Below, piece after piece: positions 32,342 to 55,383 of a stretch of DNA of 64,000 nt. The position numbers and the translations under genes are program-made. The DNA is taken from contig CASEYP010000020.1 of NCBI GenBank assembly GCA_949292185.1, positions 62,001 through 126,000 on the forward strand. Direction: 5' to 3'. Each line of letters starts with the position of its first letter. The stretch's first letter is position 1. The notes below the pieces were generated by a model. The model was not told where the DNA came from. It did not search any database and worked only from the letters and a program-made list of their open reading frames with translations. This DNA is from an uncultured bacterium (GTDB taxonomy: Bacteria; Cyanobacteriota; Vampirovibrionia; Gastranaerophilales; Gastranaerophilaceae).

Positions 32342-32379
32342 AAAAAAACGAACTTATGAAAATCATAAATTCGTTTTTA
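32342..32379 (-). terminator. Terminator of the RNase P RNA gene
   Basis: On the minus strand AAAAACGAATTTATGA / TCATAAGTTCGTTTTT forms a long stem with one G-T pair and ends in seven T residues, right after the rnpB 3' end. Confidence 0.82.
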
Positions 32380-32383
32380 AAAA

Positions 32384-32727
32384 AAAGCAGTCCGTAAGCC
32401 GTGTTCTGTTTATAGATAATCATCTGTCTGGTATTAGGATTGCTCCTAATCTCTAGCGATTTTTCTGAAGATGGCGAACAACCTTAACCTTCAATTCAAT
32501 CTTGCATCCGACTGGGGTTTACCTAGCTGATACCTTCCGATATCACTGGTGAAGCTCTTAACTCACCGTTGCACCATCGCCCGTAGTATAAAACCCGTTG
32601 GCAGTCTACATTTCTGTGGCACTATCCGCCGATTCACATCGCCCGGAGTTTCTCCGGCAGCCTGTTCTTGGATGCACGGACTTTCCTCACTTGAATGTTA
32701 CTTCAAGCGCGATTATCCGACTGCTTT
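32384..32727 (-). ncRNA. rnpB: RNase P RNA (class A)
   Basis: The catalytic RNA of RNase P trims the 5' leader of tRNA precursors. On the minus strand the hallmark GAGGAAAGTCC block (conserved region I) appears near the 5' end, and ACAGAACACGGCTTA (conserved region V) near the 3' end. The outer P1 helix pairs AAGCAGTC at the 5' end with GGACTGCTT at the 3' end. Length is about 344 nt. Other expected pieces include CGGAGAAACTCCGGGCGATG and GGGTAAACCCC-like segments. The 5' end directly abuts, and by P1 overlaps by 1-2 nt, the stop codon of the pseudopilin gene upstream. Confidence 0.95.
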
Positions 32728-33394
32728 AGTCATCTGTTAAACTCTTGTTGACTTTGACAGCTTCAATTGCCCATTTGTCTCCAGAGTCAATTTGGACTTT
32801 TCCGGTACCATATATTTTCATACGGAATCTGTCAAAACCTGTTTTTCTGCTAGTACAATTTCCGTCTGTACCGCTTTTAAATTCACCTGAATAAGAGTGT
32901 CCGTTACTGCAGTTTGGCTCATCACTACCGTTTACGTCTACTGTCAAATATGTAAAACCGCCATCAGTTCCGGTTGTTGTGAAGTTTGTACTTGTAAATA
33001 CCCAGTCCATACCGTCATCTGTGTTAAATACGGTTCCTGCACCTACGGCATCTTTACCAAGTTTGTCTAAAAACAATGTTCTGAATTTTGTATTTTGGTC
33101 GCCTCCGTTTATGTATGCTTCACCCCATTTTAGACAGTTAGCAGTACCAGCTCCGTCATCAAATCCGACCTTTTTATCTGTTATTGAAGATGTTTTATCA
33201 GGATAACAAGCTTCATCATTTATTAGTTCACTGACAATTGTTTGTACTGTGTAATATGCCCTTTTTGCCATAATCGTATTTTGGTTTGGTATTAAGTTGA
33301 ATATAACAGGCATTAATATCGCACAAAGAATACCAACAACTCCAAGAGCAACTAACAATTCTGTCAGTGTGAACGCATTATTTAATCTTTTCAT
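32726..33394 (-). CDS. Type II pseudopilin-like prepilin
   Basis: This 222-residue protein begins with a short basic leader and the prepilin signature: MKRLNNAFTLTELLVALG, with E at +5 after the predicted peptidase cleavage before F. A roughly 22-residue hydrophobic helix (VVGILCAILMPVIFNL) follows. The C-terminal domain is glycine and threonine rich with cysteines (CYP, NCLKWG, NCSNGH, NCTSR) that can form disulfides. Such minor pilins or pseudopilins assemble in type IV pilus or type II secretion fibres and are abundant in Gastranaerophilales. No assembly ATPase or platform protein lies nearby. Confidence 0.88.
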   Translation of the reverse strand: MKRLNNAFTLTELLVALGVVGILCAILMPVIFNLIPNQNTIMAKRAYYTVQTIVSELINDEACYPDKTSSITDKKVGFDDGAGTANCLKWGEAYINGGDQNTKFRTLFLDKLGKDAVGAGTVFNTDDGMDWVFTSTNFTTTGTDGGFTYLTVDVNGSDEPNCSNGHSYSGEFKSGTDGNCTSRKTGFDRFRMKIYGTGKVQIDSGDKWAIEAVKVNKSLTDD

Positions 33395-51653: not shown

Positions 51654-52151
51654 TTATGCTTTAGATTTGTGAAGAACAACTTTACCTGTTTTTAAAGTTT
51701 CAGGCACATTTATAACTCTTTGATTGCTGCTTCCAACCCAAGGAATATTATTGTCATTTAAAGCTTTAACAAATCTTCCGTCAGCTAAAACATCTGCGTA
51801 TTTCATTGCTTCTTCGTCTTTAACATCTTCCCAAAGAAATCCGGTATATACCCAAACTGTTTTATCAGGACAAACTTCCTTGCATTTTTTCATCAGTCTG
51901 AAAACTTCACTTCTATTAAACGGATGAAGAGGATCTCCTCCGCTAAAAGTTATACCTGAACAATGAGGTTGTTTTAAGGCTTCCAATAGTTCTTCTTCAG
52001 CTGCCTTATCAAATGGTAAGCCTCCTGCCAAATCCCAAGTTATAGGGTTTTGACAACCTTCACAATGGTGTGTACATCCTGCAACCCATAAAACTACTCT
52101 TAGACCGTCGCCATTTAACATGTCGTCTTTTGTTATATTATGATAATTCAT
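51654..52151 (-). CDS. nrdG: Anaerobic ribonucleotide reductase activating protein
   Basis: NrdG is a radical SAM enzyme that installs the glycyl radical on NrdD. The 165-residue protein has the radical SAM cluster motif in VAGCTHHCEGCQNP (C-x3-C-x2-C) and the GGDPLHP block for S-adenosylmethionine binding. It starts 2 bp after the nrdD stop on the same strand, so the pair is one operon under the cobalamin riboswitch. Confidence 0.95.
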   Translation of the reverse strand: MNYHNITKDDMLNGDGLRVVLWVAGCTHHCEGCQNPITWDLAGGLPFDKAAEEELLEALKQPHCSGITFSGGDPLHPFNRSEVFRLMKKCKEVCPDKTVWVYTGFLWEDVKDEEAMKYADVLADGRFVKALNDNNIPWVGSSNQRVINVPETLKTGKVVLHKSKA

Positions 52152-52153
52152 TT

Positions 52154-54415
52154 TTACATACTCACTCTGTCTTTAATTTCTTCCATTTTAGCTTCATTTA
52201 AACGTGTATCACCATTTACACGTGAGTATGATAAATAACCATTCATACGATCTATTTTTGTAAGGTTTCTGCTTCCACATTTTGGACATACATCCATTGA
52301 CAATTCTTGGTGTCCGCAATCATCACAATATGCTAATGATAAATTTACACCTTCGTAAAATCCTTTATCCATTGCTCTTTTAATAAGTGTTTTTATTGCA
52401 TCTACATTATAAGATATAGGATATTTTACATATTGAATTTTACCGCCATTGAATAAATCCCAGAATCTATTTTCCAAATCTTGTTTTTGAATTGGTGTAA
52501 TATCTTCTGCAACGTGGCAGTGGAAACTATTTGATACATAGCCTCTATCAGAAACTTTTTCTTTTATTCCGTATTTTTTTCTAAATTGTTTAACTTGTAA
52601 TCCGCAAAGATTTTCAGCAGGCGTTCCATATATTGCGTATAAGTTTCCGTCTTCTTCTTTGAATTGGTTAACTTTTTGATTAATATATGACATAACTTCT
52701 ACTGCAAATTCGCCATCTTCAACTAAAGATTTTCCATTATAAAGTTCTTGAAGTTCATTTAATGCGGTAATACCAAATGAAGCTGTTGCTGATTTTAATA
52801 ATGGTTTAATTTTATCAGATGGTTTTAAATGTCCGCCGTAAAATCCGCCTTCGCAATATGCTAAAGGATTTACTGAAGCTTTCATTTCGCCTAAATATTC
52901 ATAAGTTCTTATATGAATTTTTCTGATAAGTTCCAAATAATAATCTAAAACTTCATAAAAATCTTTACTTTCTTGTCTTGCTTTAGCCAAAATCATTGGT
53001 AAGTGTAAACTTACTGCACCGATATTAAATCTTCCGACAAAAATTGGTTGATCATTATCATCGGCAGGTTTCATTCCGCCTCTTTCAAACCAAGGTGATA
53101 AAAATGCTCTGCAACCCATTGGGGAAATTACTTTTTTATATTTTTTATAAATACTTGCAACATATCCGTCACCTGTTAATGATAACCAATCCGGATACAT
53201 TGTTTTTCTTGAGCATTCAACACCTGCTTCAAATAAATCTTCTAATTCTTTTCCTTTTCCATGAAGATTTTCGTCATATAAAAATACAATTTTAGGGAAT
53301 AATACAGGTTTTTTATTTTCTTTTTTACCTTGACCTTTAGCATGAACTTTTAACATAGTTAAAGATGCCATTTTTTCAAATTCACCTGTACCAAGACCGA
53401 TTGTCATTGTGATAAATGGATAATCACCTCTTGAAGATGCTACTGTGTTGAATTTGTATTCCCAACCTTGGAAACCTTGTTCAAAATCGTTTTGAACATC
53501 TTTTAAGGCTTCTTTTCTTGCATCTTCAAATGATAAACCCATACATAAATATCTGTCATATTGTTTTTCATAAGATTTTTGAGCATAAGGTGCTAAAATT
53601 TTATCAACTTCAGGAACTGTAAATCCGCCATATTGTTGGCTTGCTGCTGCCATAACAATATCACCGATTACATCAAATGCAACGTCTAAAGTTTTAGGTT
53701 CGTTATACCATAAGTTACCCATTTCAAAGCCGCCTTTTAAAACTTCTGCAACATTGAATAAGCAACAATTCATTGTATCGCGACGTGCTGACATATCATG
53801 AATATAGATATAACCTTCTCTAATTGCTTGTAAATCTTCTACTGTTAAAAAGAATTTTTTGTATAATTCTTTATTTAACTGATTGAATATTAATGAACGT
53901 TTTGTTGATACTAATGCTGAATCAGAGTTAGAATTTTCTTTATCGCCAATATACATAATTTTTTGGCTTTCTTGATATACTTTGTCAAGCATAGCAACAA
54001 AATCTGTTTTATAGTTTCTGTAATTTCTATAACTTTGAGCAACAAGCGGATTAATATTTTCCAAAGCTCTTTCTACAATGTTATGTATTTCTAAAATACT
54101 TACTTCATTTTTTTGTAAGTCGTTAACATTTTTATTTACGAAATCACATATTCTTTTTAAATCTTCTTCTGAAAATGTAACAAGCATTCTTGCTGCAGAT
54201 TTTTTTACAGCTTCCACAACTTTTTGTACATTAAATTTTTCTCTGGTACCGTCTTTTTTTACGATGCATACATTTTCTAATTTTGAAGCACTTTCTATTA
54301 CTTGTTTTGCAAACATAGCATTAGATTCGTGTACTCTTTTGATAATGTCATTTACATGTGAATTGGATATACCAACTACATTCTCTTTCCCATTCTGATT
54401 AACCGCATTTTGCAT
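52154..54415 (-). CDS. nrdD: Anaerobic (class III) ribonucleoside-triphosphate reductase
   Basis: NrdD reduces ribonucleotides to deoxyribonucleotides under anaerobic conditions using a glycyl radical. The 753-residue protein has an N-terminal ATP-cone (CIVKKDGTREKFNVQKVVEAVKKSA), the catalytic body (YIHDMSARRDTMNCCLF, then PLAYCEGGFYGG) and a C-terminal zinc site (CDDCGHQELSMDVCPKCGSRNL). The glycyl-radical loop RMNGYLSYSR follows. AGGAG is 10 nt before the ATG. The leader holds a cobalamin riboswitch, which is unusual because the enzyme itself does not use B12. nrdG follows directly. Confidence 0.95.
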   Translation of the reverse strand: MQNAVNQNGKENVVGISNSHVNDIIKRVHESNAMFAKQVIESASKLENVCIVKKDGTREKFNVQKVVEAVKKSAARMLVTFSEEDLKRICDFVNKNVNDLQKNEVSILEIHNIVERALENINPLVAQSYRNYRNYKTDFVAMLDKVYQESQKIMYIGDKENSNSDSALVSTKRSLIFNQLNKELYKKFFLTVEDLQAIREGYIYIHDMSARRDTMNCCLFNVAEVLKGGFEMGNLWYNEPKTLDVAFDVIGDIVMAAASQQYGGFTVPEVDKILAPYAQKSYEKQYDRYLCMGLSFEDARKEALKDVQNDFEQGFQGWEYKFNTVASSRGDYPFITMTIGLGTGEFEKMASLTMLKVHAKGQGKKENKKPVLFPKIVFLYDENLHGKGKELEDLFEAGVECSRKTMYPDWLSLTGDGYVASIYKKYKKVISPMGCRAFLSPWFERGGMKPADDNDQPIFVGRFNIGAVSLHLPMILAKARQESKDFYEVLDYYLELIRKIHIRTYEYLGEMKASVNPLAYCEGGFYGGHLKPSDKIKPLLKSATASFGITALNELQELYNGKSLVEDGEFAVEVMSYINQKVNQFKEEDGNLYAIYGTPAENLCGLQVKQFRKKYGIKEKVSDRGYVSNSFHCHVAEDITPIQKQDLENRFWDLFNGGKIQYVKYPISYNVDAIKTLIKRAMDKGFYEGVNLSLAYCDDCGHQELSMDVCPKCGSRNLTKIDRMNGYLSYSRVNGDTRLNEAKMEEIKDRVSM

Positions 54416-54451
54416 AATAAAATCTCCTCAGTCTCGTAAGTCATGCTCTCA

Positions 54452-54527
54452 TTAAGTATTCCGACTTTCACGGTTGCGGACCAGTGAGGGACTTTCACCC
54501 TTACTTCCCTTAATCTCTATTCAATTA
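54452..54527 (-). promoter_or_regulatory. Cobalamin (B12) riboswitch upstream of nrdD
   Basis: On the minus strand the leader contains AAGGGAAGTAAGGGTGAAAG, then TCCCTCACTGGTCCGCAACC and GTGAAAGTCGGAATAC. These match the B12-box core of cobalamin riboswitches (GGGAA, GGTGAAA-TCC, CCGCAAC, GUC-GGAUAC) in order and spacing. ATTAAG (54515-54510) pairs with CTTAAT (54457-54452) to close the core. It is a compact form. Between the core and the ATG lie AGGAG and an ATTTT/AAAAT pair around the start codon, so translation could be the controlled step. By known logic it should lower nrdDG expression when B12 is present. Confidence 0.9.
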
Positions 54528-54533
54528 TTTTAT
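54528..54533 (-). promoter_or_regulatory. -10 element of the nrdDG transcript
   Basis: TAAAAT on the minus strand lies just upstream of the riboswitch core and predicts a start near 54521. The -35 is weak (ATTAAT about 17 nt further upstream). Confidence 0.4.
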
Positions 54534-54747
54534 CATAAATGACTTTAAAAATTAATATTTATTCGAAAAAATAAATCCATTGACGGATGGTTTTCGTAAT
54601 GTATTGAAATATTTGTTAATCCGTTTTTTGGAAAATGAATAATAACAAGAGTCATGCAAGATGCAAGTTTTTATTTTAAATATTAAATCATGATAAGAAG
54701 GATTAACATTTGTAAATCTTACACTAAATTAAAAATAAAAGAGAATT
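54534..54747. other. Spacer between nrdD leader and the rubredoxin-fusion gene
   Basis: About 214 bp of AT-rich sequence. I saw a CCAT/ATGG palindrome around 54574 but no NrdR-type box, no clear terminator and no supported coding frame. Confidence 0.4.
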
Positions 54748-55383
54748 TTATCTAATTTTTACAAAATAGTCTTTTCCTTTTTTGCAAACTGGGCAGACAA
54801 ATGTATCAGGTTCTTTTGTTAGATCACCTTCATAAACGTATCCGCAAATTTTGCATTTGTATGCAGGACCTTTGTTTGAAGTTGTTGTTTCTTCTATGTA
54901 TGTTGGTGCATTTTTAGGACTTGTTCCTTTTCTTACGGCATGATAATAAGCGTAAGTCATGGGAATTTGATTATGCAGCATTTCACCATCTATAATTTTC
55001 CCAAGAAAAACCGTATGAGTTTCTGTTTCCATTTTGTCTACAAGTTCGCAGATAATGTAGCCTACTGAATTTTCTATTACATCTATTCCATCTACGGTAA
55101 CTTTTTTTATATTTTCAAATTTGTTTATATTTTGTCCTGTTTGAAATCCGAATATTGGAATTATATTTTCATCAGAGTCTACTCCAAGTATTGAGATTGC
55201 AAATTTTTTGTATTTATTGATACATTCATTTGTGTAGTTGTGGTGATTTATACTAACTGCGATTGTATCGTATGTAATTTGCATTAGGCTATTTGCGATA
55301 CAGCCTGTGGATTTTTCATCACCGTTTGGTGTTGATACTACATAAACTCCGTATGATAAATTCTTTAGTACATTAACATCCAT
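54748..55383 (-). CDS. Flavin reductase-like protein fused to rubredoxin
   Basis: This 211-residue protein has an N-terminal flavin-reductase/flavoredoxin domain (YGVYVVSTPNGDEKSTGCIANSLMQIT, then FGFQTGQNINKF) that should bind FMN. A C-terminal rubredoxin domain holds its iron through CKICGYVYEG and CPVCKKGKDYF. The rubredoxin is the short form without the usual DPxxGDP insert. Comparable fusions (high-molecular-weight rubredoxin) pass electrons from NAD(P)H to diiron or flavodiiron proteins that remove O2 or NO. That fits an anaerobe's oxygen defence. It is a single-gene unit. Confidence 0.87.
   Translation of the reverse strand: MDVNVLKNLSYGVYVVSTPNGDEKSTGCIANSLMQITYDTIAVSINHHNYTNECINKYKKFAISILGVDSDENIIPIFGFQTGQNINKFENIKKVTVDGIDVIENSVGYIICELVDKMETETHTVFLGKIIDGEMLHNQIPMTYAYYHAVRKGTSPKNAPTYIEETTTSNKGPAYKCKICGYVYEGDLTKEPDTFVCPVCKKGKDYFVKIR

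Follow-up and report, generated by a model that had tools for sequence, protein, structure and literature searches.

The nrdDG leader described here raises the question of why genes for a ribonucleotide reductase (RNR) that needs no B12 should be preceded by a B12-type riboswitch. The locus lies in a 64 kb stretch of DNA from a member of the Gastranaerophilales, which was analysed as a whole and is referred to below as the window. Our preferred answer, to which we give a probability of roughly 78%, is that enough cobalamin in the cell would turn off nrdDG translation through an AdoCbl-II riboswitch in the leader, that the AdoCbl-dependent class II enzyme NrdJ would then supply the deoxynucleotides (dNTPs), and that nrdDG translation would be released once B12 is depleted. 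The ligand, the direction of switching and the effect on protein levels are what we infer here; the presence of the riboswitch is observed. The interpretation given in a preliminary description of this DNA, a nutrient-based choice between two RNRs, is supported overall.

The genes are those of a class III glycyl-radical RNR, as had been proposed. NrdD matches TIGR02487 with 585 bits (1.7e-175) as well as PF13597 and PF03477, and aligns with the solved NrdD 1h78 at E 2.5e-81, while NrdG, encoded after a gap of 2 bases, matches TIGR02491 with 180 bits (3.2e-53). An NrdD equivalog with the glycyl-radical motif is hence found next to an NrdG with the CX3CX2C motif (Table 1). The gene immediately before the nrdD leader, also on the minus strand (window 54748-55383), encodes a fusion of a flavin-reductase domain with a rubredoxin-like domain.

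Table 1. Features of the nrdDG locus, in window coordinates
Feature	Coordinates	Strand	Basis
nrdG, radical-SAM activase (CTHHCEGC)	51654..52151	-	TIGR02491 3.2e-53
nrdD, class III anaerobic ribonucleoside-triphosphate reductase with ATP cone and RMNGYL glycyl-radical motif	52154..54415	-	TIGR02487, PF13597, PF03477
Shine-Dalgarno GAGGAG, first three bases within P13	54424..54429	-	read directly from sequence
P13 hairpin CUUA[CGAGAC]UGAG, loop L13 at 54436-54431	54427..54440	-	covariation in 17 nrdD leaders
AdoCbl-II (Cbl-II type) riboswitch aptamer	54449..54527	-	RF01689 above gathering score; lineage model; covariation
L5 loop (GUCCG), 5' partner of the kissing loop	54477..54481	-	GUC complementary to L13 GAC
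Extended -10-like motif TATGATAAAAT, likely promoter, just upstream of the aptamer	54527..54537	-	putative; conservation judged by eye

A cmscan search of the whole window places a match to the AdoCbl-II family (RF01689) at 54527-54449 on the minus strand, with 38.5 bits (gathering score 36.5; E 1.3e-5 for 64 kb and 4227 families; E 8.4e-8 when the model is run alone on 400 bases). It is the sole cobalamin-clan match in the window. The only other Rfam match there is a class A RNase P RNA (window 32379-32728, minus). The preliminary description had placed a B12-type riboswitch in the nrdDG leader, which this match to a cobalamin-clan family above its gathering score bears out, and the span that it gave, 54416-54533, includes the aptamer as well as the expression platform and ends immediately before the nrdD ATG (54415). 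Its assignment of the element to the Cobalamin family held in part: the element belongs to the cobalamin clan, but the canonical RF00174 stays below threshold at the same place (25.2 versus 31.5 bits), and the element is of the short AdoCbl-II type rather than of the large canonical Cobalamin family. A lineage covariance model, for which 30 elements from this order were used, gives it 73.6 bits (E about 1e-21), a score that is not fully independent because the nrdDG leader element is among the 30 training sequences.

Comparison with relatives supports the predicted aptamer structure. Across 56 distinct sequences, 90.2% of the structure cells in P3-P6 are paired, against 78.7% after shuffling, changes on both sides occur in 8 of 14 pairs, with some in each of P3, P4, P5 and P6, and the covariation score is matched by 0 of 500 shuffles and far poorer for slid structures; because it was fitted to the structure of the model, the alignment is biased towards that structure, and its sequences are related. 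The P3-P6 four-way junction, with covariation, is that of an AdoCbl-II element, and such an element precedes nrdD in further Gastranaerophilales genomes as well. The AdoCbl-II riboswitch before nrdDG is therefore confirmed as real.

Repression by B12 makes sense if a B12-dependent RNR is available in the same cell, and a class II NrdJ elsewhere in the genome had been predicted. The host genome (1.89 Mb, 96.7% complete) encodes a single PF02867 protein, a full-length NrdJ scoring above the cut-offs of both TIGR02504 (742 bits, cut-off 400) and NF006417 (996, cut-off 961). This protein likewise exceeds the cut-off of the class I model TIGR02506 (414, cut-off 341), with a score far below that for TIGR02504. 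Its C-terminus, KCPECG...CFICLNCGYSGC, reads as an NrdJ-type Cys/zinc motif, and its nearest solved protein is the B12-dependent RNR 1xje (5e-126), which we take to be the Thermotoga maritima enzyme. The PF02867 search of the host genome returned no second NrdA/J-type large subunit, including none of class I; with NrdJ as the sole PF02867 match, the choice of RNR is one between class II and class III, that is, between two anaerobic enzymes, as the preliminary description had it. A B12-dependent isozyme hence stands alongside a riboswitch-controlled, B12-independent one in the same genome. Two CobA/BtuR adenosyltransferases are also encoded, and the cell is therefore probably able to convert imported corrinoid to AdoCbl. 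At the Pfam cut-off, the host genome yielded no protein with a B12-binding domain, and hence neither a MetH nor a mutase of this kind. B12 uptake or synthesis genes, to which the preliminary description had also pointed, did not emerge: the markers PF01032 (BtuC-type/FecCD permease), PF02361 (CbiQ-type ECF T component) and PF02654 (CobS) gave no match in the host genome. The host thus has NrdJ and two CobA/BtuR proteins, yet no detected BtuC-type permease, CbiQ-type ECF T component or CobS.

Arrangements of this kind have precedents. In 2004, Desulfovibrio vulgaris and Desulfuromonas were reported to carry B12 elements on nrdDG as well as an nrdJ gene, and B12 was proposed to repress the isozyme that does not require it (PMC545781). 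Both share with the present case a B12 riboswitch on nrdDG and an NrdJ in the same genome, whereas here the lineage is the Gastranaerophilales, the riboswitch is of the short AdoCbl-II type and two types of NrdD carry it. For Propionibacterium (Cutibacterium) acnes, cobalamin riboswitches on nrdDG and nrdAB, and none on nrdJ, were described in 2013 and the same logic was proposed (PMC3848588); the riboswitch in the nrdDG leader and its absence from nrdJ are common to both organisms, but P. acnes has three RNR classes, while no class I large subunit was found here. In Caulobacter, reporters showed that B12 turns off translation of the B12-independent isozyme encoded by metE (PMC6538847), a shut-off like that proposed here, acting there on methionine synthase and here on RNR.

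How the element would act on nrdDG is suggested by the sequence between the aptamer and the start codon. The aptamer is followed by the P13 hairpin, to whose loop L5 (GUCCG) is complementary. Native L5-L13 pairing scores 430, compared with 311 +/- 19 for shuffled pairs and reached by 0 of 300 shuffles (57 leaders with several targets), a result that is indicative only, as downstream segments were shuffled among leaders that are related. In 17 nrdD leaders, 92.9% of the P13 cells are paired, against 80.8% when shuffled, and at two positions both partners of the pair have changed; the variants include CUUA/UGAG, UAUUA/UAAUA and CUUUA/UGGAG. The complementarity and the covariation of P13 correspond to the L5-L13 kissing loop and expression-platform hairpin of AdoCbl-II riboswitches. 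The 3' strand of P13 enters the Shine-Dalgarno sequence (SD) GAGGAG, which is separated by 8 bases from the nrdD ATG at 54415. We found no terminator-like site in the nrdD leader, and because P13 enters the SD and no terminator was found, a B12-dependent shut-off of translation is most likely. Ligand bound at the P3-P6 junction would stabilise the L5-L13 kissing loop and P13, and the stabilised P13 would run into the SD. The env8 Cbl riboswitch represses translation through P13, the ribosome-binding site (RBS) and a kissing loop (PMC10907184), and the two share a translational platform in which a P13 hairpin carries or touches the RBS and an L5-L13 kissing loop forms; they differ in their target genes and in that the RBS begins in the P13 3' strand here and lies in the P13 loop in env8. 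Because the platform resembles that of env8, in which ligand-stabilised docking hides the RBS, we regard repression of translation by B12 as the reading with the best support, and the structure suggests that nrdDG expression falls with B12. The -10-like motif upstream reads roughly TGnTAnAAT in close nrdD leaders, judged by eye, even where the aptamer core has been lost; a consensus scan of the leader did not pick it up. Unconstrained folding of the single nrdD leader gave no excess stability (z 0.53) and did not bring out the repressing structure.

The switch could instead work in the opposite direction, with the 3' strand of P4 (CCCUCA) masking the SD (UGAGGAG) until P4, formed with ligand, frees it, so that B12 would raise nrdDG expression. 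These two segments do pair in the ligand-free minimum-energy fold, and a single activating corrinoid riboswitch is known (PMC10653944). However, by eye the complementarity to the SD is dropped or weakened in the leaders L092 (CCAUC), L133 (CCCAC) and L138/L067 (CCUUC), so the pairing is probably incidental, whereas P4 itself covaries and P13 stays paired. Activation would also turn on a B12-independent enzyme when B12 is plentiful, contrary to the precedents, and we consider it improbable.

The distribution of the switch among relatives bears on its role. Two NrdD types occur in the genus, and in most of 40 genomes a single NrdD was detected. The window's type scores ~385 bits against PF13597 and the other, a PRK08270 type paired with NrdG2, reaches ~685 bits; within this one genus the AdoCbl-II switch precedes both. 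The P5-P6 core is gone from the nrdD leaders L041, L042, L043, L047, L049, L134, L142, L147, L145 and L141, and core-less leaders of the window's NrdD type still have the promoter-like motif and the SD, as well as some of the 5' sequence. The lineage model gives only 17-21 bits to L041, L134, L142 and L137/L139, and the core-less leaders outside this scored set, judged by eye, are probably decayed riboswitches too. NrdJ is kept in L041, L042 and L043, where the core has been lost; riboswitch control therefore appears dispensable, since several close relatives with NrdJ no longer have the aptamer core. In 50 named genomes, NrdJ accompanies 9 of 10 nrdD loci of the window's type that have an intact switch and 7 of 40 loci without one (raw Fisher p 3.9e-5, on related rows); after correction for ancestry on the NrdD tree, which leaves only 2-3 informative pairs, nearly all in the expected direction, the link is not significant. 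An intact switch also occurs in a 1.2 Mb bin in which NrdJ was not detected (L102). A rule by which the nrdD switch is lost together with NrdJ fails, as L041-L043 keep NrdJ and the ancestry-corrected test is not significant.

Some relatives depart from this pattern in other ways. In L121, L122, L125 and L126, the riboswitch upstream of nrdD has ~50 additional bases in the P6 loop. The nrdD leaders of L029, L094, L102 and L148 are longer, with the SD well past L13 and beside a hairpin-like segment that possibly masks it, and could represent a different expression platform; a simple terminator scan of the L094 leader found nothing. Eight genomes in which no full-length NrdJ is present (G304, G305, G307, G311, G313, G316, G317 and G318) contain an open frame of 410-455 residues that weakly matches parts of the RNR barrel family.

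A real riboswitch might also have another role, either by sensing another corrinoid or upper-ligand form or by weak tuning of nrdDG while oxygen or NrdR dominates. The Rfam name is no proof of selectivity for AdoCbl, cobalamin riboswitches accept many corrinoids (PMC9600662), and close relatives in which NrdJ persists show decayed aptamer cores; against this, the core is strongly conserved across many leaders and has been kept on two types of NrdD, and we regard such a role as unlikely. That the resemblance to AdoCbl-II is due to chance or non-functional is scarcely credible, although the Rfam match is only 2 bits over the gathering score, for the covariation, the same position before nrdD across many genomes and the E-value of about 1e-21 from the lineage model, with the element among its 30 sequences, speak against it, and the comparative data effectively refute it.

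Repression of nrdDG by B12 would be one use of a widespread element, as 262 of 286 genomes of the order contain an AdoCbl-II match. At 25 of the 30 best loci in the order, the gene downstream is one that we call cph; its product has 235 residues and an invariant CPHG...CP.C motif. The gene is followed by a conserved ~500-residue protein with two to four hydrophobic stretches in 20 of 20 loci examined downstream, and a third small gene is present in 13 of these 20. The host genome has two AdoCbl-II elements, the one in the nrdDG leader and one other, and none on NrdJ. The second precedes a cph operon (L005 4791-7685, contig C19), which encodes the CPHG...CP.C protein, a 500-residue membrane-like protein and a 172-residue protein, and whose leader contains a terminator-like hairpin. 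In a sister family (G013, L170), AdoCbl-II precedes genes for a TonB receptor, a FecCD permease, an ABC ATPase and a periplasmic binding protein, and judging from these components the G013 operon is btuBCDF-like. Because the sister family has this operon at that place and the host has no detected FecCD, ECF T component or CobS, cph is a candidate substitute for B12 uptake, a reading drawn from position and from these absences in one nearly complete genome. Profile searches against Pfam and the PDB gave only weak, coiled-coil-type matches for the first cph-operon protein, and the predicted structures of the operon's proteins are of low confidence (pLDDT 59 and 64). Hence, we tentatively propose, while considering it rather doubtful, that the AdoCbl-II family of the order mainly controls a new operon for B12 acquisition or handling, cph, which substitutes for btuBCDF, and that the nrdD switch is one member of this family.

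In a partial literature search, we found no publication on an AdoCbl-II switch before nrdDG in the Gastranaerophilales. The logic of switching is already known; the new elements are the lineage, the core-less leaders and the occurrence of the switch before both types of NrdD in a single genus. With repression by B12 as the preferred reading, nutrient-based RNR switching would extend to a cyanobacteria-related gut lineage without a detected oxygen-requiring class I enzyme, in which the switch is found on two types of NrdD and appears to have decayed at the same position in relatives. Its sister riboswitches point to the cph operon, which may explain the B12 supply of the Gastranaerophilales.
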